Assembly: GCA_903870685.1 (NCBI GenBank)
Contig: CAIQDX010000049.1
Coordinates: 62,001 to 126,000 of the forward strand
Origin: an uncultured Chitinophagaceae bacterium
GTDB lineage: Bacteria > Bacteroidota > Bacteroidia > Chitinophagales > Chitinophagaceae
Direction: 5' to 3'
Length of the DNA: 64,000 nucleotides
Numbering within the stretch: the first letter of the stretch is position 1; each line of letters opens with the position of its first letter. A program made the translations under genes and the position numbers. A model generated the notes under the pieces. That model worked only from the letters and a program-made list of their open reading frames with translations. It was not told where the DNA came from and ran no database searches. Of this stretch, positions 5,817 to 34,154 are shown piece by piece.

Positions 5817-8639
5817 ATGCAGAAAAAATTATTTTTACTGGATGCTTTTGCCTTAATCTTTCGTGCATATTATGCCTTGATCAGAAATCCACGCATCACT
5901 TCAAAAGGAAAAAACACCAATGCTCAATTTGGTTTTACAAATACTTTGTTTGAATTGATTAATAAAGAAAAACCAACACATCTCGCCGTTTGTTTTGATG
6001 TTTCTGGTCCAACAGAAAGACACGCGGATTTTGAGGATTACAAAGCGAATAGACAAGATGCGCCCGAAGATTTATTAGCATCTATTCCCGATATAAAAAA
6101 AATAATTGAAGGATTTAATATTCCGGTGATCGGTGTTGAGGGATATGAAGCCGATGATGTAATTGGAACATTGGCTTGGGAAGCCCACGATGCAGGATTC
6201 GAAGTTTTTATGGTAACGCCCGATAAAGATTTTGGCCAACTGGTTCGCGATGGAATTAATATTTATAAACCCGCATATCAAGGAGGAGATGTAGAAATAA
6301 TGGGGCCAAAAGAGGTTTGTGCAAAATGGGGTATTGAAAGGGTTGATCAGGTAATTGATATTTTAGGATTGATGGGGGACGCCGTAGATAATATTCCAGG
6401 AATTCCCGGTGTTGGAGAAAAAACAGCCGCTAAACTTTTAAAAGAATTTGGAACATTAGAAAATGTTTTAGCAAACGCCGATAATATCAAGGGCGCGCTG
6501 GGTGAAAAAATAAGAGCCGGAAAAGAAAGCGCTATTATGAGTAAAAAATTAGCGACAATTATTACAAAATCGCCGGTGGAATTTCATGAAGAAAATTTCA
6601 GATTAAAAGAATGGAATAAAGAAGAATTAAAAGAAGTGTTTGCCGAATTAGAATTTAAAACTCTTGGCAAAAGAATATTGGGTGATGATTTTAATATGTT
6701 TCATTCTGCGCCCGTTGGTGTGCAAACCGATTTGTTTGGAAACACTGTTGAAACAAAAAAAATAGAAAGTAAAAAAACAGAGGTGGTTGAAGAATCTTTA
6801 ACACCGGGATTAATTTCTGCTCACAACATTAACAATACAAAACATAATTATATTCTTATTGATACTGAAGAAAAAATTAAATTGCTCGTTGACGATTTGC
6901 TCAAACAAAAAGAAATTTGCTTTGATACCGAAACAACAAACATTAACGCTAATGAAGCAGAATTAGTGGGTATGAGTTTTGCTTTCGAAAAAGGGGGGGC
7001 ATATTATGTACCGTGCCCCGCAGATAAAAATTCAACAGAAAAAATATTAACACAATTTTCATCGCTTTTTAATTCAACAGAAATCGTTTGGGTCGGGCAA
7101 AACTTAAAATATGATCTTCTGGTTTTAAAATGGTGTGGTGTTGAGCTGAGGGGAAATATTTTTGATACAATGTTGGCACATTATGTTATTGAGCCGGAAG
7201 GTAAGCGCAGTATGAATTTGCTGAGTGCCCAATATTTGAGTTATGAACCCGTGCATATTGATGAATTGATTGGAAAGAAAGGAATGTTGCAGGGTAATAT
7301 GCGTGATGTTGAGATAGAAAAAGTTAAAGAGTATGCGGCCGAAGATGCAGATATTACTTTGCAATTGAAAAATATATTTACTCCGTTGCTCAAAGAAAAA
7401 GATGTTGAACGTGTGTTTAATGAAGTAGAAAATCCATTGGTTAAAGTATTAACCGATATGGAATTTGAAGGAATAAAAGTGGATGTAAATTTCTTAAATG
7501 ATTACAGCAAAGAATTAGAACGTGAAGCAAAAAAATGTGAGGAGAGTGTTTATCTGCAAGCAGGTGTTCGTTTTAATTTAGCATCACCAAAACAATTGGG
7601 AGAAGTGTTGTTTGATAAATTAAAAATAGATGAGAAAGCAAAAAAAACAAAGACCGGTCAATATGCAACAGGTGAAGATGTTTTATTAAAACTCGCACAT
7701 CAACATAAAATAGTTGATGATATTTTAGGGTTCAGAGAACTCACAAAATTAAAATCAACTTATGTTGATGCGTTGCCGCAAATGATCAATTCAAAAACAG
7801 GAAGAGTGCACACTTCTTATGCGCAAGCCGTTGCTGTTACAGGAAGATTAAGCAGCAATAATCCTAATCTCCAAAATATTCCAGTTCGTTCCGATAGGGG
7901 AAAAGAAATAAGAAAAGCGTTTGTACCAAGAGACGCGAAACATATTTTAGTCAGCGCTGATTATTCACAAATTGAATTAAGAATCGTTGCAGCAATCAGT
8001 GGTGATGAAAATATGTGTGCTGCATTTACTCAAGGAAAAGACATTCATACAGCAACGGCTGCAAAAGTCTATAACATAAGCGAGGCCGATGTTACAAAGG
8101 AAATGCGTTATAAAGCAAAGAGCGTAAACTTTGGAATCATTTATGGACAAGGGGCGTTCGGCCTTGCTGAAAATCTTGGTATTTCAAGAACAGAAGCAAA
8201 AGAAATTATTGATAATTATAAAAAAGAATTTTCTGGCATAAACAAATACATGGATGATACTATCAACTTCGCAAAAGAAAATGGTTATGTAGAAACATTG
8301 ATGGGAAGAAAACGATGGTTGAAAGATATTAATTCGTCCAACTTTACGGTTCGTGGTTTTGCAGAACGCAATGCAATTAATTCTCCTATTCAAGGAACCG
8401 CGGCGGATATGATAAAATTGGCTATGATAAAAATTCATGCTGCAATGAAGAAAGAAAAATTGCAATCAAAAATGTTGTTGCAGGTACACGATGAATTAGT
8501 GTTTGATGTATTACGCGAAGAATTAGAAATTATAAAACCATTGATTTTAGAAAACATGAAAACGGCAATGCTGTTACCAAACAGTGTTCCTGTTGAAGCA
8601 GAACTTGGTGTTGGAGAAAACTGGTTGCTGGCACATTAA
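5817..8639 (+). CDS. polA: DNA polymerase I
   Basis: 940 residues with all three domains. The N-terminal 5' nuclease (residues ~1-290) carries GVEGYEADDVIG and GIPGVGEKTAAKLLKEFG. The 3'-5' exonuclease domain keeps its DxE metal motif (CFDTETT), so proofreading looks intact. The family-A polymerase core has motif A (SADYSQIELR), the O-helix (RYKAKSVNFGIIYGQ) and motif C (LQVHDELVFD). It fills gaps, removes RNA primers and works in repair. Length is normal for the family. It is divergent from the nfn pair and followed 24 nt later by a small NTF2-like gene. Confidence 0.97.
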   Translation: MQKKLFLLDAFALIFRAYYALIRNPRITSKGKNTNAQFGFTNTLFELINKEKPTHLAVCFDVSGPTERHADFEDYKANRQDAPEDLLASIPDIKKIIEGFNIPVIGVEGYEADDVIGTLAWEAHDAGFEVFMVTPDKDFGQLVRDGINIYKPAYQGGDVEIMGPKEVCAKWGIERVDQVIDILGLMGDAVDNIPGIPGVGEKTAAKLLKEFGTLENVLANADNIKGALGEKIRAGKESAIMSKKLATIITKSPVEFHEENFRLKEWNKEELKEVFAELEFKTLGKRILGDDFNMFHSAPVGVQTDLFGNTVETKKIESKKTEVVEESLTPGLISAHNINNTKHNYILIDTEEKIKLLVDDLLKQKEICFDTETTNINANEAELVGMSFAFEKGGAYYVPCPADKNSTEKILTQFSSLFNSTEIVWVGQNLKYDLLVLKWCGVELRGNIFDTMLAHYVIEPEGKRSMNLLSAQYLSYEPVHIDELIGKKGMLQGNMRDVEIEKVKEYAAEDADITLQLKNIFTPLLKEKDVERVFNEVENPLVKVLTDMEFEGIKVDVNFLNDYSKELEREAKKCEESVYLQAGVRFNLASPKQLGEVLFDKLKIDEKAKKTKTGQYATGEDVLLKLAHQHKIVDDILGFRELTKLKSTYVDALPQMINSKTGRVHTSYAQAVAVTGRLSSNNPNLQNIPVRSDRGKEIRKAFVPRDAKHILVSADYSQIELRIVAAISGDENMCAAFTQGKDIHTATAAKVYNISEADVTKEMRYKAKSVNFGIIYGQGAFGLAENLGISRTEAKEIIDNYKKEFSGINKYMDDTINFAKENGYVETLMGRKRWLKDINSSNFTVRGFAERNAINSPIQGTAADMIKLAMIKIHAAMKKEKLQSKMLLQVHDELVFDVLREELEIIKPLILENMKTAMLLPNSVPVEAELGVGENWLLAH

Positions 8640-8663
8640 TAAAATTAATTACAAAAAATATTC

Positions 8664-9134
8664 ATGGAAAACAACGAACAAATCATTCATCGTTTTTATC
8701 AGGCGTTTCAAAAATTAGATTATAAAACAATGCAGGATTGTTATAGTAACGATGTTTTATTTTCTGATCCCGTTTTTGGTTTATTACAAAACGGCGAACC
8801 GCAGGCCATGTGGGAAATGTTGTGTAAAAAAGCAAATAATTTTTCTTTAACCTATGGAAACATTATTTTGATTGATGAAGAATATGCAAGCTGCGAGTGG
8901 GTTGCAACATATTTATTTTCTGCATCAAATAGAAAAGTAGTAAACAAAATAAAAGCACATTTAAGAATTGTTGATGGAAAAATTACAGAACACACCGATC
9001 AATTTAATTTATATCGCTGGGCAAGACAAGCATTGGGATTTCCGGGAATTTTATTTGGATGGACGTCTTTCATGCAAAATAAAATAAAAAGAAATGCAAT
9101 AAATAATTTGCAAAAATTTTTGCGAACAAAATAG
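8664..9134 (+). CDS. NTF2/SnoaL-like cone-fold protein
   Basis: 156 residues beginning MENNEQIIHRFYQAFQKLDY, the usual first helix of SnoaL/NTF2-like proteins, followed by CYSNDVLFSDPVFG and a curved sheet. Members include isomerases, hydrolases and simple ligand binders; the fold alone does not give a reaction. No signal peptide, so cytosolic. It follows polA by 24 nt and could be co-transcribed. The stop lies 3 nt from the end of the convergent DUF2480 gene. Confidence 0.7.
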   Translation: MENNEQIIHRFYQAFQKLDYKTMQDCYSNDVLFSDPVFGLLQNGEPQAMWEMLCKKANNFSLTYGNIILIDEEYASCEWVATYLFSASNRKVVNKIKAHLRIVDGKITEHTDQFNLYRWARQALGFPGILFGWTSFMQNKIKRNAINNLQKFLRTK

Positions 9135-9137
9135 AAA

Positions 9138-9644
9138 TTATTTCTTTTTATAAATAGGAACCGTGCTGCAAGGCTCGCCGTACATAATACTTTTAACGAA
9201 AGGCCTTAATTTATTAGTTATTTCAACATAAGCAATTTCAGGAATTGAAACATCGCCGCAACCTTTTACGACAACTCTTTTATCTAAATAATCTTCTCCC
9301 TTTACTTCGTTAATTTTTTTGATGAGTATCGTTTCAATTAATTTTTTTTCATCGCCAAAAACAACCTCCTTTGCAATGGGTTGTAAATAACTTGCTGCCA
9401 ACATGTTTGCCCACATAGGTATGATAGCATCGGCGCTACAAAGAATTGAAACATATTTGTCGCGGTATTGTTCCCAATTTGTTGTTTGTAAAGCGGCACG
9501 ATAATCTTTCTCTTTTAAAATCATTCCCATAAAAAGAAAGTCTTTCAAATCAAAAATTTTTATTTCTCCTTTGGGATAAAATTCTTCCAGATCAAAGCTA
9601 ATCAATCCACTTTCGGCAACCTTATTTAGAAATATTTCTTCCAT
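9138..9644 (-). CDS. DUF2480 family protein
   Basis: 168 residues starting MEEIFLNKVAESGLISFDLE, a Bacteroidota-specific family of unknown function with a conserved VKGCGDVSIPEIAYVEIT segment near the C-terminus. The frame extends upstream to 9710, but that extension runs into the hairpin that terminates the preceding gene, so the ATG at 9644 is preferred. It lies downstream of the foldase gene on the same strand, separated by the terminator, and is therefore mostly independent. No signal peptide or membrane segment. Confidence 0.8.
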   Translation of the reverse strand: MEEIFLNKVAESGLISFDLEEFYPKGEIKIFDLKDFLFMGMILKEKDYRAALQTTNWEQYRDKYVSILCSADAIIPMWANMLAASYLQPIAKEVVFGDEKKLIETILIKKINEVKGEDYLDKRVVVKGCGDVSIPEIAYVEITNKLRPFVKSIMYGEPCSTVPIYKKK

Positions 9645-9697
9645 TATCACAAAAGTACAATTTGATTTTTTGTTTCGCTTTCGCATTGCGTAAAACA

Positions 9698-9727
9698 AAA
9701 GCCGCATCAAAATATTGATGCGGCTTT
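9698..9727 (-). terminator. Terminator after the SurA/PpiD-like gene
   Basis: A perfect 13-bp stem (AAAGCCGCATCAA with TTGATGCGGCTTT) with a 4-nt loop, 20 nt past the stop of the foldase gene, followed on the minus strand by a T-rich run. Confidence 0.85.
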
Positions 9728-9746
9728 CTATTTTTTAAAAAATTTA

Positions 9747-11837
9747 TTAATAAAATTTGCTTCTGTAATCCTTTACCGCAGATGATTTTCGCAACGCTTC
9801 AGATCCTCTATAAATTGCCATGCGTTGACTTTGCAAAGCCGCCTGCCTAATTGATTCGGGCGTTTGTGTTGAGTTTGCTTTTGCGCCGATATTTTCAACT
9901 CGCAAAGCAAAAACACCGGATGTTCCTGCAACGGGCTCTGTTACTTTTCCTTTGTTTGATGCATTAAATGCTGTGCCCGAAAATTTAGAATCATTACCAA
10001 CACCAGGAATAAAAGGATTGGTAAATAATAAACTGTCAGATTTTTGTAGTGTTGATCCCGTGCTTATTGCCAATGCTTCTAATGTGTTTCCTTTAAATTT
10101 ATTTTCAATTATTTGTTTTGCTTTCTTTTGATTGCGAACAATGCTTTCAATGGCTGGTCTTATAACCTGTGCCGGCGGCAATCCAGGTTTAATTACAGAA
10201 GAGATTATTGAAACAATATATTTATCTCCAATTCTGATTGGCTGGTCGTTTACATCTCCTGCACTGTGTTCATAAACCCAACGAACCAATTGGCGGCTTT
10301 CTCCAAGACCCGAAATTGTAAAATCATTTTCTTTTATTTCGCCGGAAGGAATTGATAATTTATTAAGCTTTGCGGCGTTATCATCGAATTGCTTTTTATT
10401 TCTGCTTGTGCCTGCAAACTGAGATGCGGCGTTGTTTGCAGCAGCATCCGTTTCATTACTAACAATTATAGGTTTTGATAAGTATGCAATTTTATATCCA
10501 GGCCCAGATCCTTTTTGTGCTAACACTTCAACATAATGAAAACCAAATTCGGTTTGTATTACACCCTTTGATCCAACGGGTTTGTTGAAGCTGAAATCGT
10601 TGAATGTTGGAACCATTCTGGCAGATGCAAAAAAATCATAAACACCGCCCTTGTTTTTATTTCCGTCGTCAGAAAATTTAGCGCAAACGGAGTCGAAGTT
10701 TTTGCCGCTTTTTATTTCTGCTTCAACAGTATCCATTATTTTTCTTGCAGCACTATCTTCTCTAACCCTGGCTAATGTTCCGGAGTTCTGATCTTGCTGA
10801 TGTGTAGAAATTAATATGTGGCGAACTTTTACAGAATCAGGAATTTGTTTTACACCAACAACTCTTGCTAAAACAAAATTATTTCCATCAACATAAGGAC
10901 CATAAATACCACCTGCAGGAACTTTTATAATTGAATCGATGCTTTTTTGTTTGATTTCTTTTTTACTAACATAACTATCGTAGAAAGGAGATTCCGTTGC
11001 GTTCTTTGCAAAGAAAGAAGGAATATCAGAAGTAGAAGAGAATTCACTTTTTAAAAGATACAATTGATTTTTTGTTGCTGATGAATCTGCCGCACTTGCT
11101 GATGCGCTAAAAGAAACAAAAGAAATAGTTCTTGTTTCCTCTTCTCTTTCATATTCTTTTTTGTGTTTCTTGGCATAATTTAAAATATCATCATCGCTTA
11201 CTTTAATAGTACTATCTGAAACAGCTGAATATGGAACATAAACAAAAGAAACAGCTGAAACTAAATTATTATCAGCTTGTTGTTTTTCAATCATCCATTT
11301 TGGAACATACAAGCTTTGTTGTAACATAGCTTGATATTTATCATTCAGTGCTTGTAAAATTGCGGGCTCAATATAAGCTTCAATAATACCGGCTTGTTGT
11401 TCAGAGTTCTTTGATTTCTTGATTTGAGCAAATGCTTGCTTTGCTTTTTCTACATCAAATATTCCGGTTTGTGGATCGGTGAATTCTCTTTTTAGCGGAG
11501 ATCTTTCTCCAAAAATAATTTCATTCAATTCTTTTTGTGAAATAGACAATCCCAATTTATCAAACTCTTGTTTCATTATAAGAGTAGAAACTTCTTGATT
11601 CCAGAGTTGACCAATTAATTGTTCTCTCTGCTGACCTTTGCCATACATTAATAACTTTTGTTCAAAATCGACACGCTCTATATTCTGGCCATTAACTTTT
11701 CCAAGAACGGAATTGCTTGAAAAGCCACTTCCGCCACGACGTACACCATCTTGAAGAATAAAAGCGATCAACGCTAATGCAATAATTGCAAAAACAATCC
11801 AGGCACCCTTGTCACGAATTCTTTGTATAACAGACAT
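9747..11837 (-). CDS. SurA/PpiD-like membrane-anchored peptidyl-prolyl isomerase
   Basis: 696 residues. The architecture matches PpiD: a short cytosolic start (MSVIQRIRDK), one membrane helix (residues ~12-30), a SurA-type N-terminal chaperone domain with NGQNIERVDFEQKLLMYGK, a parvulin PPIC domain (VRHILIST through GSKGVIQTEFGFHYVEVL), and a second C-terminal foldase-like region. It should be tethered to the inner membrane with its bulk in the periplasm, helping outer-membrane and secreted proteins fold. A longer frame reaches 12008, but a near-perfect promoter lies inside it, so the ATG at 11837 is chosen. Bacteroidota usually annotate this gene as ppiD-like. Confidence 0.88.
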   Translation of the reverse strand: MSVIQRIRDKGAWIVFAIIALALIAFILQDGVRRGGSGFSSNSVLGKVNGQNIERVDFEQKLLMYGKGQQREQLIGQLWNQEVSTLIMKQEFDKLGLSISQKELNEIIFGERSPLKREFTDPQTGIFDVEKAKQAFAQIKKSKNSEQQAGIIEAYIEPAILQALNDKYQAMLQQSLYVPKWMIEKQQADNNLVSAVSFVYVPYSAVSDSTIKVSDDDILNYAKKHKKEYEREEETRTISFVSFSASASAADSSATKNQLYLLKSEFSSTSDIPSFFAKNATESPFYDSYVSKKEIKQKSIDSIIKVPAGGIYGPYVDGNNFVLARVVGVKQIPDSVKVRHILISTHQQDQNSGTLARVREDSAARKIMDTVEAEIKSGKNFDSVCAKFSDDGNKNKGGVYDFFASARMVPTFNDFSFNKPVGSKGVIQTEFGFHYVEVLAQKGSGPGYKIAYLSKPIIVSNETDAAANNAASQFAGTSRNKKQFDDNAAKLNKLSIPSGEIKENDFTISGLGESRQLVRWVYEHSAGDVNDQPIRIGDKYIVSIISSVIKPGLPPAQVIRPAIESIVRNQKKAKQIIENKFKGNTLEALAISTGSTLQKSDSLLFTNPFIPGVGNDSKFSGTAFNASNKGKVTEPVAGTSGVFALRVENIGAKANSTQTPESIRQAALQSQRMAIYRGSEALRKSSAVKDYRSKFY

Positions 11838-27667: not shown

Positions 27668-29089
27668 CTAAAAATTATTTTCTCTCTCCGTCAACGAATT
27701 GTTTTTTATTCCTTTAATTAATCCGCGACAGTTTGCGCTGCCGCAACTGCAATTAAAAGGTTCCATGTTTTCATCGAGGAAAGAGGCATAATCTAAAGTA
27801 AGCTCTTCGCCTTTAAAAATATGTTTTAAAGCAATAACATTTAAACCAATATATCCGGTGTTTGCATCGCAACAATGATTTTGTGGCGCCCATTCGGCAG
27901 GATTATCATCCCACAATAAAAATATTTCTTTGCTTACCGGATAGGCGTAACGACGAAAAATTTCTTTATCATTTTCGTTCCAATTATTTTCTACAAAACG
28001 ACGAGTTGCTAAGCGTTGCGATTTTCCTTCACCTAAAAAAATAATCTCTCCTTGTTTAATATTTCTATTGGCATAAATGCCGAAACCCGCAATACTATTG
28101 CCTTTCATCACATAACATTTTTGTTTTCTGTTGTGACGAGCAATTCCTTCGGCAATGATGTGATGTAAAAAACCTGATTGTCCAATGCCATCATATTTTA
28201 AAATATAATCGGCAGAACCTTCGTAACCATCTTTATAAAAAACAGAACAAGTAAAATTTATTTCAAGAAAAAAGATTTCACCTTTTGCATTCATTCTAAA
28301 ATCCATTCTTGCATAACCAACACCATTGAAGGATTTAAAAATGCGTTGAGCACTTTCTCTTAATTGTTTGTCGAGTGCAATATTAGTAACAGGAATATTT
28401 GCGTCGGGATGCAACTCTGAAGTTTTTAATGCATAAGTTTTGAATTTATTTCCTTCGGGAAAAATAAATTCAACCGGACGAAAAGCGGTTGATGATTTTC
28501 CATCGGCATTTGCCGCAACCAAAACAGTAAACTCTTTTCCATCAATATATTCTTCAACTAAAATTTCATCATACTCATCAATAATACTGGCAACTTTTTC
28601 TTGCAAATGTTTTTTATCAAACACCAAAGATTGTTCATCAACACCCAAACTATCACCGGCTTTCGCAGGCTTTACAAACATTGGAAATTGTAAAAACTTA
28701 CAGGCACTTTCAACATCATTTATTTTTTCAATTAAAAAATAAGCTGGTGTTTTTACGCCTTCGCAATGAGCCACATATTTCATCAACTCTTTTGTTGGAT
28801 CGTATAATAATGTGGACGGTCCAGTGTGTGGAAGATTCAATAATTCTAAAGTATAAATAACATCGATGGATGGAATATTCCAATCCAAATATCCTTCACA
28901 TAAATTTACAAACACGTCGTAGTTCTTCTTTTTTAATTCCTTGAGTTGTTTGTAAACAGAAAGTTTATTTAATAACACATGATCTACCGTTGCCTCGGGA
29001 ATCAAGCGGGATAAGTCTCTTGGCGGATCATAATATTGATAATCCACCGATGATGTTGAGTAATCGGGTTGCAACACACAGATCTTCAT
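27668..29089 (-). CDS. ATP-grasp ligase fused to a SET domain
   Basis: 473 residues, two domains. Residues 1-~320 are a D-Ala-D-Ala-ligase-like ATP-grasp: FVNLCEGYLDWN (~60), P-loop-like FVKPAKAGDSLGV (138-150), EEYIDGKEF (~180), and the metal-binding R261-MDFR and FFLEINF (E276, N278). Residues ~325-460 are a SET domain: GNSIAGFGIYA (330-340), NHCCDAN (404-410) in place of NHSCxPN, GEELTLDY (427-434), and a post-SET cysteine set C447, C449, C454. SET domains methylate protein lysines using S-adenosylmethionine; ATP-grasp enzymes form peptide-like bonds. The start overlaps the preceding ATP-grasp gene by ATGA. Fusion with a ligase suggests ligation and methylation act on one substrate; the substrate is unknown. 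Confidence 0.85.
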   Translation of the reverse strand: MKICVLQPDYSTSSVDYQYYDPPRDLSRLIPEATVDHVLLNKLSVYKQLKELKKKNYDVFVNLCEGYLDWNIPSIDVIYTLELLNLPHTGPSTLLYDPTKELMKYVAHCEGVKTPAYFLIEKINDVESACKFLQFPMFVKPAKAGDSLGVDEQSLVFDKKHLQEKVASIIDEYDEILVEEYIDGKEFTVLVAANADGKSSTAFRPVEFIFPEGNKFKTYALKTSELHPDANIPVTNIALDKQLRESAQRIFKSFNGVGYARMDFRMNAKGEIFFLEINFTCSVFYKDGYEGSADYILKYDGIGQSGFLHHIIAEGIARHNRKQKCYVMKGNSIAGFGIYANRNIKQGEIIFLGEGKSQRLATRRFVENNWNENDKEIFRRYAYPVSKEIFLLWDDNPAEWAPQNHCCDANTGYIGLNVIALKHIFKGEELTLDYASFLDENMEPFNCSCGSANCRGLIKGIKNNSLTERENNF

Positions 29090-30204
29090 GATACAAGTAC
29101 CGGGGTTCTGGCAACAGCATCGTTAATGATCTCTGTTACTAATTGAGAGAAAGTTTTATTTGAAAAACGTAAGATAGCACCAATTGAAGTAAAGTCTTCG
29201 TCTTCACTGATGCCGCATTGTGCATTTACTTCGAGCACAAATAATTTTTTTGTTTCTTTATCCATGCGAATATCAATTCTTGTATAGCCCCTTCCTTTAA
29301 CCGAACAGTATGCATCCCAACTTAATTGTTTTATTTGATCGATTAAAGACGCTTCTGGTAATTGATACTCGTAAAAATTTTCATCTTGTGGCATGGGTGT
29401 TTCTTCTTCATATATTTCCCACAAACGATCGAAGGATAAAAATTTTTCATGCTCAGGCAATGAAGGATGAAAGACTCTTTCAACAGGATTATAGATTATT
29501 GCTTCATCAGGTTTATCGTAACTGCCAACAATTAATGTTGTGAATTCTGCACCGTTTATAAATGATTCTGCAATTAAACCATCGGCAGTTAAATCCCAGC
29601 CGCGATAACCATCAAACATTAATTCAACCTGTTTATTTAATTCATCAATATCATTCACAACATTCTTAATTCCAACACCCATACTTCCGCCGGAGATAGA
29701 AGGCTTAACAATTATTGGCGTTCCTAGTTTTTTAAAAATATTTTTAAGTGATTGATTTTTTTGATTGATGGCCATCCACTTTGGCGTTGGAATATTTGCA
29801 GCATCAAAACACTCTTTCATCGAAATTTTTGATGTGGTGATGTTATAAAAATATTCGTCGGCACCGGTATAAATCAAATCTTTTTCGTCTAAATATTTTA
29901 CAACAGAAACACCGGGCGTACCGTTTACTTCATCGCCATCGCATAAATTTAAAACCAAAGGAAAAATTTTTTTTGATTTTTTTTCTGCAACAATTTCATC
30001 GATAACAATTTTATAATCGCTCATTGTTACAGGTTGCCAATGCCATTGTAAACCAAGCTGGGCAAAGGTTTTAGTGTATTCATCAATACTTTGAGAGAAG
30101 TCGTAATAATAATCAATATTAGCATCGTTAGTTATTAGATGCGGAGCCAACACCCAAACTTTTAGTGCAACAGATGATTTTTTTTTATGAGGATTAGGTG
30201 CCAT
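29086..30204 (-). CDS. ATP-grasp ligase (D-Ala-D-Ala ligase-like)
   Basis: 372 residues. The N-terminal pre-ATP-grasp region holds LVLNLCDGDEVNGTPGV (83-99). The ATP-grasp core has IIVKPSISGGSMGVGIK (164-180), AESFINGAEFTTL (~212-224) and metal ligands in RIDIR (309-313) and FVLEVNAQCGIS (E325, N327). All key residues look intact, so it should be an active carboxylate-amine ligase. It differs too much from Ddl in the N-terminal half to be called the cell-wall enzyme, and it contains a long insert (VERVFHPSLPEHEKFLSFDR). It lies 18 nt after a SET gene and overlaps the fusion gene by 4 nt. The product is unknown. Confidence 0.82.
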   Translation of the reverse strand: MAPNPHKKKSSVALKVWVLAPHLITNDANIDYYYDFSQSIDEYTKTFAQLGLQWHWQPVTMSDYKIVIDEIVAEKKSKKIFPLVLNLCDGDEVNGTPGVSVVKYLDEKDLIYTGADEYFYNITTSKISMKECFDAANIPTPKWMAINQKNQSLKNIFKKLGTPIIVKPSISGGSMGVGIKNVVNDIDELNKQVELMFDGYRGWDLTADGLIAESFINGAEFTTLIVGSYDKPDEAIIYNPVERVFHPSLPEHEKFLSFDRLWEIYEEETPMPQDENFYEYQLPEASLIDQIKQLSWDAYCSVKGRGYTRIDIRMDKETKKLFVLEVNAQCGISEDEDFTSIGAILRFSNKTFSQLVTEIINDAVARTPVLVS

Positions 30205-30222
30205 TGAGTAAAAATGATGTTA

Positions 30223-30714
30223 TTATCGTTTAAGGATTTGTGATTGTATGAAATCAGTTAAACGATATTGTTTTAAGATATCATCACTCAAATAAACAGC
30301 ACCTTGTATTTGATGCAAACATCTTGCAGTATTGCAAAAACAATTGAATGGCTGTGCCATATTCCATTCGGTTGACGGATAAAAAAAAGTAAACTCGTCA
30401 CCTGTTTCGATCTTCGTTAGCGCAATCAATTGAAATGTTGTTGTATCAAAAAAAACATTTGGATTACAGCTGTGATTGATGTATTGCAAAAACTCCGGTT
30501 GCAGGGTTATATGCTTTTCTTCTTCAACCTGAACGGTAAGATAAGTTGGTTGTGATAATGTTTCTCCTGCAGAAAAAGTACAAAGAACATCTCCTGCATA
30601 AAATGAAGAAAATGCATGCAACGATCTTTGTTGCGTGAATGAATTTTGTACGATTTCAGCAAAGCCATGATTGCTGATAACCGTATACGTTGGGTTAGTA
30701 GTAGGTTGTATCAT
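30223..30714 (-). CDS. Stand-alone SET-domain protein
   Basis: 163 residues, one compact SET domain. Canonical elements: RSLHAFSSFYAGDVLCTF as the opening strands, YINHSCNPNVFFD (NHSCxPN, residues 80-86), GDEFTFFYPSTEW (105-117) in place of GEELTFDY, and a post-SET zinc site C125-x-C127-x4-C132. The N-flanking strand lacks the usual GxG, so cofactor binding may differ. Predicted SAM-dependent lysine methyltransferase, cytosolic. First gene of the three-gene operon with two ATP-grasp enzymes. A TATCTTG box ends 15 nt before the ATG. Confidence 0.85.
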   Translation of the reverse strand: MIQPTTNPTYTVISNHGFAEIVQNSFTQQRSLHAFSSFYAGDVLCTFSAGETLSQPTYLTVQVEEEKHITLQPEFLQYINHSCNPNVFFDTTTFQLIALTKIETGDEFTFFYPSTEWNMAQPFNCFCNTARCLHQIQGAVYLSDDILKQYRLTDFIQSQILKR

Positions 30715-30915: not shown

Positions 30916-31161
30916 TTAATTTTTTGAAAACATTGCATCTTCATAGATTTCCGCTTCTTCGCAGTTAAACATCCAGTAAACAAGATACTCTTCGCTTGAT
31001 GGAAGATCAAAATAATCCAAACAACTTTTAATTCTATCTGATTCAAACATGTTAACAATCTTATCATTACTAAACTCCACGATTCTATAAATCACTTCAC
31101 CATTTCTTTTAGAATGGTAAAGGCGCACAAAAAATTTGGCATTGTTATTATTGGCGTTCAT
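30916..31161 (-). CDS. Small acidic hypothetical protein
   Basis: 81 residues, not recognised. It begins MNANNNNAKFFVRLYHSKRNG, forms a predicted short alpha/beta unit (GEVIYRIVEFSNDKIVNMF), and ends with an acidic stretch (NCEEAEIYEDAMFSKN). No signal peptide or membrane segment. It reads on the same strand as the SET/ATP-grasp operon but 201 nt upstream of it, so co-transcription is uncertain. Codon use and start context look like a real gene. Confidence 0.5.
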   Translation of the reverse strand: MNANNNNAKFFVRLYHSKRNGEVIYRIVEFSNDKIVNMFESDRIKSCLDYFDLPSSEEYLVYWMFNCEEAEIYEDAMFSKN

Positions 31162-31454: not shown

Positions 31455-32597
31455 ATGAAAATCCAACAACATCATTTTGTTCAAGATAAATGGCTTGAAA
31501 AATCGTCCGATACCAATTTTAATACAAACAACGCACAATTGGTTTTTGCTTTAGGTGCCGGTCAATTAATTTCAGATAAAGAAGTATTTGATTATTTAAA
31601 AAATATTTATCCCAACGCCAATATAGTTGGAGCATCTACTTCGGGAGAAATTATAAACGACGATGTGGTTGATGAAAGCGTTGTAGTTACGGCAATTGAG
31701 TTTGAAAAAACAAAAGTAAAATGTGCCGAAACAAATATTAAGAATCAACAAAATAGTTTTGAAGCCGGAAAACATTTAATGCAGGAATTAAATGCAGATG
31801 ATATTGTTGCAGTGTTTATTATTTCTGACGGCACAAAAATTAACGGAAGCGAGTTGGTTAACGGAATGAATGAAAACAACGATAAAAAAATTCCTATCAC
31901 CGGAGGACTAGCCGGCGATGCGGCACGGTTCGGTAAAACTTATGTAGGATTAAACCACACGCCAACCGAAGGAAACGTACTTGCTATTGGTTTTTATGGC
32001 AAGCATTTAAAAATTGGCCATGGTTCGTTTGGTGGGTGGGATGAATTTGGAAGAGAAAGAATCATCACGAAATCAGATAAAAATATTTTATACGAGATTG
32101 ATGGAAAAAATGCGCTTGATCTTTATAAAGAATATTTAGGACCGTATGCACAAGAACTTCCGGGCTCGGCTTTATTATTTCCTCTGTCAATTAAAATTGA
32201 AAATGATGAATCAACATTAGTAAGAACAATTCTTTCTATTGATGAAAACAACAAGTCAATGACTTTTGCAGGAAATCTTCCTGAAGGAAGTAAAGTTCGT
32301 TTGATGAAAGCAAATTTCGAAAAATTAATTGAAGCGTCTTCAACAGCCGCAGAGCAGTCATTAGACAATCACGCAATCCCGCCACAGCTAGCGATACTCA
32401 TTAGTTGTGTAGGAAGAAGATTGTTGTTGCAGGAAAGATCATACGAAGAAGTTCAAGCGGCTAAAAAAATTTTTGGGAACAAAACAAACATAACAGGATT
32501 TTATTCTTATGGAGAAATATCTCCGTACAATCAAAATGCATTTTGCGGATTGCATAATCAAACAATGACGATTACAACTTTTACCGAAACAATCTAG
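31455..32597 (+). CDS. FIST-domain sensor protein
   Basis: 380 residues with FIST_N (FALGAGQLISDKEVFDYL; NIVGASTSGEIINDD; PITGGLAGDAARFGKTYVG) and FIST_C (ELPGSALLFPLSI to GFYSYGEISPYNQ). FIST proteins are cytosolic ligand-binding modules, thought to sense small molecules such as amino acids, and are usually encoded beside signalling proteins. Here a hybrid histidine kinase follows after 27 nt. The kinase has no membrane sensor of its own, so the FIST protein probably supplies the input. Confidence 0.88.
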   Translation: MKIQQHHFVQDKWLEKSSDTNFNTNNAQLVFALGAGQLISDKEVFDYLKNIYPNANIVGASTSGEIINDDVVDESVVVTAIEFEKTKVKCAETNIKNQQNSFEAGKHLMQELNADDIVAVFIISDGTKINGSELVNGMNENNDKKIPITGGLAGDAARFGKTYVGLNHTPTEGNVLAIGFYGKHLKIGHGSFGGWDEFGRERIITKSDKNILYEIDGKNALDLYKEYLGPYAQELPGSALLFPLSIKIENDESTLVRTILSIDENNKSMTFAGNLPEGSKVRLMKANFEKLIEASSTAAEQSLDNHAIPPQLAILISCVGRRLLLQERSYEEVQAAKKIFGNKTNITGFYSYGEISPYNQNAFCGLHNQTMTITTFTETI

Positions 32598-32624
32598 CTA
32601 TATATTACTTTAATAAAACCCAAT

Positions 32625-34154
32625 ATGCCGTATCATAAGATTTTAGAAAGTCAGATAGGAAAATTTTTACCTGAGAAATATCTTCAAGATGAAGCTATTT
32701 GCAATTTTCTAACGGCAATAAGTAAATGTTATGCAACTTTCGAAAAAGATAAAAAAATATCTGAACACGCATTTGATGTAAGTGAAAAAGAATACCAAGA
32801 AGTTAATAATAATCTGCTTCAGCAAAATGAGATAAGAAAGCAATCAATTCTTAAATTAAAAGAAGCGATTAAATCAATGGATCCAAACGCATCTTTTGTT
32901 TCTGAAAAAGATGACGACCTTTTTAGTACTATTTCTTTTCTCGAAGAACAAATAAAAAAATCAAAGGAGCTATCAGCCGAACTAATAAAATCAAAAGAGT
33001 TTGCAGAAAAAGCAATGCAGGCTAAAAGCGATTTTCTTACTGTGATGAGCCATGAAATTCGCACACCATTAAACGCGATCATCGGAACTATATTATTATT
33101 ACAATATCAGGATCCGCTACCATCGCAAAAAGAATTTTTAAGTGTTCTTGAAATTTCCTCAGAAAATTTATTGAGTTTAATAAACGATGTATTAGACTTC
33201 AGCAAATTGGAAGAAGGCAAAATAATATTTACTGATAGAGATATTGAGATACAGCATTTTCTCAATAATATTAAAATGGCAAATCAAATCAGAGCCGAAG
33301 AAAAAGGAAATGAGATAGTGGTTTTGTATGATGAAAACATTCCCGACTTTGTACGAGGCGACGATGTTAGAATCGGACAAATATTAAACAACTTAATTTC
33401 TAATGCCATAAAGTTTACAAACGATGGAATTATTACTATTCAAGCTTCGTTAAAAGAAAATAATGAAGACAGTGCGCTAGTTTATTTTGCAGTAAAAGAC
33501 ACCGGTATTGGTATTCCGATTGAGAATCAACAAATAATTTTCGAAAGGTTTACTCAAGCAAATACAAATATTACACGAGACTATGGAGGATCGGGTCTTG
33601 GTCTGGCAATCATCAAAAAGTTGCTTGAATTACAGGGAAGTGAAATTAATTTAGAAAGTGAATATGGAAAGGGCTCAACATTTTATTTTGTTCTTCTTTT
33701 TAAAAAGAGCAAAGCAAATATTATACGCGAAGAAAAATTTCAAACATTCGATAAACAAGAATTAAAAGGGTTAAAAGTATTATTAGTAGAAGATGTTTTG
33801 TTTAATGTTATGGTGGCAGATGGAATGCTGCAAAACTGGAGCGCAATAACAGAAGTTGCAGAAAATGGTGTAATTGCAGTTGAAAAAATGAAAGAAAATA
33901 AATACGATATAGTATTAATGGATATTCAAATGCCGGTAATGGATGGATATGCAGCCACAATAGAGATCAGAAAATTTGATACCACTACACCAATCATTGC
34001 ATTAACCGCATCTCTCTCTGCCGACATACAACAAAAAGTAATTAATGTTGGCATGAATGGTTTTGTAACAAAGCCTTTTAATCCCAATGATCTTTATAAT
34101 GTTTTGTACGAAAACACTATTAATAAAAGCACAAAAAAAGTTTTGATTGATTAA
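32625..34154 (+). CDS. Soluble hybrid histidine kinase/response regulator
   Basis: 509 residues, no membrane segment. An N-terminal helical/coiled-coil region (1-~130), HisKA with H143 in MSHEIRTPLN, an HATPase_c domain with NLISNAIKFTNDG (257-269), KDTGIGIP and GGSGLGLAI, and a C-terminal receiver with D433 in LMDIQMPVMDG. No output domain: phosphate should pass to another protein or to a phosphotransfer protein elsewhere. Co-transcribed with the FIST gene. The stop is 3 nt from the convergent porin gene. Confidence 0.92.
   Translation: MPYHKILESQIGKFLPEKYLQDEAICNFLTAISKCYATFEKDKKISEHAFDVSEKEYQEVNNNLLQQNEIRKQSILKLKEAIKSMDPNASFVSEKDDDLFSTISFLEEQIKKSKELSAELIKSKEFAEKAMQAKSDFLTVMSHEIRTPLNAIIGTILLLQYQDPLPSQKEFLSVLEISSENLLSLINDVLDFSKLEEGKIIFTDRDIEIQHFLNNIKMANQIRAEEKGNEIVVLYDENIPDFVRGDDVRIGQILNNLISNAIKFTNDGIITIQASLKENNEDSALVYFAVKDTGIGIPIENQQIIFERFTQANTNITRDYGGSGLGLAIIKKLLELQGSEINLESEYGKGSTFYFVLLFKKSKANIIREEKFQTFDKQELKGLKVLLVEDVLFNVMVADGMLQNWSAITEVAENGVIAVEKMKENKYDIVLMDIQMPVMDGYAATIEIRKFDTTTPIIALTASLSADIQQKVINVGMNGFVTKPFNPNDLYNVLYENTINKSTKKVLID

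Follow-up and report, generated by a model that had tools for sequence, protein, structure and literature searches.

We find that the 64,000-nt stretch of Chitinophagaceae DNA analysed here (the window) carries a compact operon for a small SET-domain methyltransferase (SETS), an ATP-grasp ligase (ATPG) and an ATP-grasp-SET fusion (FUS), which may well specify a pathway to a small methylated metabolite resembling a di- or tripeptide, exported in some lineages. The proposal builds on the operon itself, its motifs, purifying selection, co-inheritance, family placement and, in some relatives, linkage to a transporter gene. The genes run on the minus strand in the order SETS, ATPG, FUS, and the open reading frames bear out the sizes, spacing and overlap given in the original prediction (Table 1).

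Table 1. The operon and its parts, in window positions.
Feature	Position	Strand	Basis
SETS, small SET-domain methyltransferase, 163 aa, predicted BurB-like fold	30223..30714	-	ORF, Pfam, alignment, fold
Spacer between SETS and ATPG, 18 nt	30205..30222	-	ORF coordinates
ATPG, putative ATP-grasp carboxylate-amine ligase, 372 aa, in a clade separate from Ddl	29086..30204	-	ORF, Pfam, trees
ATGA start/stop overlap of ATPG and FUS, 4 nt	29086..29089	-	ORF coordinates
FUS, whole ATP-grasp-SET fusion, 473 aa	27668..29089	-	ORF, Pfam
FUS, ATP-grasp part, residues ~1-324	28118..29089	-	Pfam, alignment, fold, trees
FUS, SET part, residues ~325-473, with post-SET cysteines and stop codon	27668..28117	-	Pfam, alignment, tree

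The window belongs to an assembly of 3.18 Mb in 147 contigs, and the closest full-length matches (93 and 88%) both come from metagenome-assembled Chitinophagaceae. All three genes are also present in Terrimonas pollutisoli (L050) and Terrimonas ginsenosidimutans (L061), which are named strains without a metagenome-assembly label. According to Pfam, the operon is preceded by divergent genes for a FIST sensor and a hybrid histidine kinase and followed by a small opposite-strand ORF and then by genes for a PIF1-type helicase and SSB.

Pfam recognizes SET in SETS (E 1.2e-7), Dala_Dala_lig_C in ATPG (E 8e-17), and both Dala_Dala_lig_C (E 4.3e-22) and SET (E 6e-8) in FUS, all above the curated cut-offs. 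Conservation was followed in alignments of 20 ATPG, 20 FUS and 19 SETS sequences, those of the window included. The R-x-D-x-R and E-x-N motifs are invariant in ATPG and in FUS; by these motifs both proteins would qualify as ATP-grasp ligases, the fold being seen for FUS alone. Likewise, N-H-x-C, a catalytic-type tyrosine and the post-SET C-x-C-x4-C are invariant in both SET domains (N80, H81, C83, Y112, C125, C127 and C132 in SETS; N404, H405, C407, Y434, C447, C449 and C454 in FUS). The active sites had been predicted to be largely intact, and this stands for the motifs just named. It does not extend to the glycine-rich SAM motif, which is present in FUS (GFGIYA-type) and, in its usual form near the SET N terminus, missing from the 19 aligned SETS sequences. 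The residue two positions before the catalytic-type tyrosine, which we take to be the F/Y switch of protein lysine methyltransferases when aromatic, is Phe in 19/19 SETS and Leu in 19/20 FUS sequences.

Comparison with the two nearest relatives gives dN/dS values of 0.13 and 0.11 for SETS, 0.08 and 0.08 for ATPG, and 0.08 and 0.08 for FUS; purifying selection thus acts on all three genes. This selection on both SET domains, together with the invariant tyrosine, N-H-x-C and zinc cysteines, argues against the idea that the SET domains are non-catalytic and merely hold or regulate the ligases, an explanation which the missing glycine-rich motif of SETS would suit and which we consider improbable.

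Co-inheritance was assessed in a sample of 244 genomes of the window's family. SETS occurs in 71 of them, the ligases in 74, and both in 70 (Fisher p 4e-55, a value that ignores kinship). FUS and ATPG are found together in 72 genomes, 70 of which have them no more than 3 kb apart. Among the 70 genomes with both SETS and ligases, 62 have SETS at most 3 kb from ATPG. One genome has SETS without ligases (G542) and four have ligases without SETS (G546, G562, G601 and G609). The last three of these assemblies are only 60-79% complete; G546 is listed as 100% complete, yet its contig starts at the 5' end of ATPG. In seven genomes SETS is still present, on another contig or 1.7 Mb away (G025, G463, G501, G526, G573, G607 and G624). 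The relocated gene adjoins a leucyl-tRNA synthetase gene in G025, G501, G573 and G624 and is one gene away from it in G526 (named by Pfam in G025, less specifically in G624, and by reading of the genes in the others). Because five of the genomes share this neighbourhood, the relocations amount to at least two moves and not to seven.

A similar picture emerges from the first search for relatives, which returned 33 loci. FUS is encoded in 32, the remaining one (L075) holding a more distant ligase. ATPG adjoins FUS in 31 of the 32, and SETS precedes both in 25; among the seven without a SETS match, a contig end cuts L045, L046 and L069, and none cuts L053, L056, L066 and L067. In a separate set of 59 genomes, which includes the window's own, 12 carry FUS and the identical 12 carry ATPG and SETS. 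Because dN/dS is as low as 0.08-0.13 and co-occurrence in the 244 genomes is near-perfect, the three genes form a unit beyond chance. From their packing and co-inheritance we infer, as did the original prediction, that they are co-expressed and work together.

The pairing is conserved well past close relatives. Among 395 Bacteroidota genomes of a wider sample, FUS (>700 bits) was detected in 17 and SETS (at least 100 bits) in 15, every one of them a FUS carrier. The 100-bit line was chosen after viewing the match list, and just below it lies a 149-aa SET protein of 99.1 bits in a genome without FUS (G312). At a looser threshold of 1e-5, SETS matches appear in 44 of the 395 genomes, and the 29 further ones include the two FUS-only genomes and assorted other SET proteins. 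Five of the 15 carriers belong to the window's family, one to a family labelled f47 and nine to a family labelled f37; a single FUS without SETS occurs in each of f43 and f73. Since f37 and f47 share only the phylum label with the window, they lie outside its class, and the SETS-FUS pairing spans three families in at least two classes. The chlorosome protein gene PF02043 was found in all four f37 carriers tested (of nine), in 0/5 other tested genomes and in 0/14 controls, and on this basis we regard f37 as green sulfur bacteria. ATPG is present in 6 of the 17 FUS carriers, namely those of the window's family and f47. In three green sulfur loci (L106, L107 and L151) the order is SETS, FUS, an ABC exporter and a third SET protein of ~120 aa; as ATPG is missing from this order, the core consists of SETS and FUS, with ATPG added in some lineages. 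Phage origin and plasmid carriage of the fusion were considered and rejected: a fusion-profile scan of viral contigs gave no relative of FUS, and among plasmid records that matched the fusion in part (442 and 42) none had a site covering at least 80% of it.

The relation of the ligases to D-alanine-D-alanine ligases was then examined. The best curated matches of both are Ddl and Van ligases, and by sequence the best solved matches of both are D-alanine-D-alanine ligases (Ddl, VanG). The predicted structure of FUS (pLDDT 82.5, the SET part lower in places) leads to the same group, with all of the best 50 listed fold matches being Ddl-type ligases. Such kinship would fit a role in the cell wall or in antibiotic tolerance, in which the ligases make an alternative D-Ala-D-X unit and methylation is accessory. 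Several observations speak against this role, which we judge quite improbable. Among the matches listed, the best score to the NCBIfam Ddl models is 93 bits, far below the cut-off of 245.65, and a complete gene of the Ddl type (C132, 181.9 bits) exists at another place in the window's genome. ATPG and FUS come out as sister groups (support 99/99) in a 45-row tree, whereas the Ddl-type proteins, that of the same genome included, form a separate group (95/88). In addition, the region of the N-T-S-P-G motif, presumably the Ddl motif at the acceptor site, reads NFTCSV or NAQCGI in the two ligases. On the sub-cut-off scores, the separate clade and the resident Ddl gene we reject a Ddl identity for ATPG and FUS. 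With the ligases distinct from Ddl and the pairing conserved beyond close relatives, neither of the outcomes named as refuting the original prediction came about.

When the tree was rebuilt without three distant rows, both operon groups held (100/99 and 100/100); this second tree is unrooted and, with the distant outgroup rows removed, the nearest group can no longer be read from it. In both trees the program flags the join of ATPG with the rest as a meeting of long branches, and for this reason an origin of ATPG as a duplicate of FUS is likely rather than sure. A wider group of the first tree (85/82) unites ATPG and FUS with tandem ligase pairs of other Bacteroidota and with ligases from Thioflavicoccus and Rhizobium plasmids.

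The pathway had been expected to methylate a lysine, and here the evidence points elsewhere. The nearest solved relative of SETS by sequence is BurB of Burkholderia thailandensis (PDB 9l4t, 9l4v), a protein of similar size (E 1.4e-11 with the single sequence and 4.7e-18 with the profile; next best 1.3e-8). The predicted structure of SETS (pLDDT 91.1) is BurB-like in fold, as judged by Foldseek (BurB 1.2e-9 versus 4.1e-6 for the best histone SET) and by VIA-align, whose list was drawn from Foldseek's own matches only (BurB Z 14.8, rmsd 3.3, 129 aligned; Z 11.1 for the best histone SET). SETS and BurB are 27-28% identical in the fold alignment and have in common Y-x-S-[ST]-E after the catalytic-type tyrosine and I-x-G-A after the zinc cysteines. 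In a 44-row SET tree the SETS proteins of both classes form one group (99/96), which clusters at 85/89, below the program's star level, with BurB-like proteins, with the third SET and with two others. BurB is reported to convert free methionine to S-methylmethionine, with a K_M for free methionine of 16.6 mM (PMC12542666; PMC7496086). The structural account names R42, A44, H72, H93, R133 and H138 as SAM contacts (PMC12542666); R42 falls outside the profile alignment, and of the other five only H93 is kept in SETS. Since the cofactor contacts are mostly not conserved, methionine is not established as the substrate of SETS; orthology to BurB is not claimed. The neighbours also differ: BurB is accompanied by a decarboxylase, an aminotransferase and a dehydrogenase of DMSP synthesis, whereas SETS is accompanied by ligases, and Pfam found no DMSP pathway gene among seven flanking genes of the window. 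Taken together, SETS resembles BurB in its predicted fold and probably in acting on something small.

The SET domain of FUS belongs, by sequence, to another clade (100/97 in the same tree) and is not specifically BurB-like; it matches BurB (1.1e-6) and MLL-type SETs (3e-6) about equally well. This near-equality would fit protein modification, in which the ligases, like RimK or TTL, attach at least one amino acid to a protein and the SET domains methylate a lysine of the protein or of the tag; most characterised SET enzymes, as generally known, act on protein lysines. In G265 (L111), genes for FGase and a MATCAP-type carboxypeptidase lie ~440 nt downstream of a relative of the fusion, on the same strand, and could belong to such a system. 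A eukaryotic protein, TTLL12, likewise joins a SET-like and a TTL-like (ATP-grasp-like) domain in one chain (PMC3520985); the likeness concerns domain make-up only, TTLL12 has a TTL-type ligase, and it is reported to be inactive in vitro. On the other hand, the operon ligases resemble Ddl by profile, and FUS also by fold, a group whose substrates are amino acids; BurB is the nearest solved relative of SETS; some operon versions include transporter genes; and no conserved candidate substrate gene was seen beside the operon. Protein modification of this kind stays among the candidates, as a somewhat unlikely one. An apparent ATP-grasp-like remainder in a 483-aa SET protein (L110) was dropped, Pfam naming nothing there at E 1.

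Export is suggested by the gene content of some relatives. Of the 39 FUS loci compared (41 window-type loci minus L108 and L115, which hold no FUS), 11 have a PF13748 membrane-transporter gene immediately downstream of FUS; at one of these (G008) the gene separates FUS from SETS within a single run. Two more FUS loci (L163 and L164) also have the gene. Its product is ~290 aa long, and Pfam recognized no nucleotide-binding domain in any of three products tested. In the remaining 28 loci no PF13748 gene follows FUS, with less than 1.2 kb of sequence at that place in L046 and L069, and the window's own genome has no PF13748 match. Among 14 control genomes only one scored over the cut-off. The green sulfur version of the operon carries a full ABC exporter.

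The contexts of more distant relatives were also inspected. The Bacteroidota tandem pairs (L140, L142-L146) resemble the operon in having two adjacent ligases of the same wider group, and differ from it in having no SET, other tailoring enzymes and separate ligase clades. They stand beside lysine 2,3-aminomutase genes in 6/6 loci, all with Pfam LAM_C, and an acetyltransferase (GNAT) gene is present in the five tested (L140, L142, L143, L144 and L145). The Thioflavicoccus plasmid ligase lies near genes annotated as diaminobutyrate, diaminopropionate and KamA-family, and the Rhizobium one has no telling neighbour. As for SET relatives, a BurB-like protein on a Sphingomonas plasmid (E 2.2e-32 to BurB) overlaps an Orn/DAP/Arg decarboxylase-family gene, a BurB homologue on an Eleftheria plasmid (249 bits) lies inside a polyketide cluster, and in G257 a SET relative shares one chain with AdoMet decarboxylase and spermidine synthase; nothing telling lies next to a SET gene on a Streptomyces plasmid. 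These neighbourhoods favour small-molecule chemistry, none of them showing the product of this operon, and no enzyme for making an unusual amino acid is encoded within it.

A ribosomal pathway of the graspetide kind, with an ATP-grasp enzyme cross-linking a precursor that the SET domains methylate, is very improbable. One survey lists O-methyltransferases and ABC transporters among the commonest companions of graspetide ATP-grasp enzymes (PMC8939145). At 24 loci we screened 263 same-strand ORFs of at least 20 aa lying no more than ~700 nt from the ends of the operon (larger or more distant precursors lie outside this screen), and found no conserved small ORF or precursor-like family; no graspetide precursor was thus detected beside the operon. 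The two largest sets of small ORFs, each from 7 loci, are downstream of the operon and, in the seven loci checked, run opposite an MnmG-like gene (so named by reading), and the next sets correspond to a transporter gene and to the end of a helicase gene. The most widely shared small ORFs of a first screen were discarded, as they lie inside the three operon genes in other frames.

The best reading remains the one originally proposed, a pathway that joins amino acids and methylates, with the lysine replaced by a small-molecule target in view of BurB and the contexts of relatives. ATPG and FUS would use ATP to turn a carboxylate into an acyl phosphate and would join amino-acid-type units through an amide bond, so that the product would resemble a di- or tripeptide. 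SETS, taking a free amino acid or small peptide in the manner of BurB, and the SET domain of FUS would methylate a building block or the product, and the fusion would place the second methylation beside ligation. The product would be exported in lineages with an ABC transporter gene in the operon. We infer the catalytic steps, their order, the substrate and the small-molecule nature of the product. By analogy, the mycosporine-like amino acid clusters (O-methyltransferase, ATP-grasp, MysD) are reported to combine a methyltransferase with ATP-grasp ligases to make a small metabolite, the methyltransferase class and the core being different from those of the SET operon.

The literature searched, to which most subscription papers did not belong, gave no description of a SET/ATP-grasp pairing or fusion; with that coverage, its silence is weak evidence of absence. 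As far as we have seen, the protein families are known and their pairing and fusion are undescribed. The usual reading of a SET domain is a protein-lysine methyltransferase, and this is how three plasmid SET proteins, two of them BurB-like, are annotated; in our searches BurB alone among SET enzymes had a demonstrated small-molecule substrate. Tentatively, the operon could represent a new class of non-ribosomal peptide-like biosynthesis in Bacteroidota, with SET-fold amino-acid methyltransferases fused to ATP-grasp ligation and, possibly, sulfonium (S-methylmethionine-like) or N-methylated peptides as exported products. Such a class would range from Chitinophagaceae to green sulfur bacteria. 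If the reading is right, BurB-like and other SET domains tied to Ddl-like ligases would be a second, independent case of small-molecule action, and the protein-lysine annotations of such SET proteins would become questions for metabolomics.

In the loci taken as green sulfur bacteria, the ABC exporter gene is followed by one encoding a very short third SET protein. SET domains also occur in other genomes, as in a single 617-aa protein of G257 that combines SET, AdoMet decarboxylase and spermidine synthase; it is adjoined by a 483-aa protein with SET at its N-terminal end, the remaining 319 aa of which matched no family in a Pfam search. On a Sphingomonas plasmid, a SET gene resembling that of the methionine S-methyltransferase BurB overlaps an Orn/DAP/Arg-decarboxylase-family gene.

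The ATP-grasp-SET fusion of G265 precedes an N-formylglutamate-amidohydrolase-like gene and a MATCAP-type carboxypeptidase gene. A cluster recurring in other Bacteroidota (L140 and L142-L146) comprises two ATP-grasp ligases with lysine 2,3-aminomutase and acetyltransferase genes, and in three genomes a lone ligase is oriented opposite to a Peptidase_C39-family gene.

Coordinates of the features by locus
Locus	Positions	Feature
L106	10756-11112	Third short SET
L107	10727-11089	Third short SET
L151	369-740	Third short SET
L110 (G257)	6989-10318	SET fusion, 483-aa SET protein
L127	6908-8646	Decarboxylase/BurB-like SET
L111 (G265)	6135-10792	ATP-grasp-SET fusion, neighbours
L141	4375-6373	ATP-grasp/Peptidase_C39
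L147	4748-6728	ATP-grasp/Peptidase_C39
L148	6021-8202	ATP-grasp/Peptidase_C39
Window	30916-31161	81-aa ORF
Window	31455-34154	FIST sensor/kinase pair

Upstream of the small SET gene in the window, an 81-aa ORF lies on the same strand and was assigned no Pfam family by a Pfam search. The genes for a FIST sensor and a hybrid histidine kinase run divergently from the operon, and this pair might detect a small ligand.
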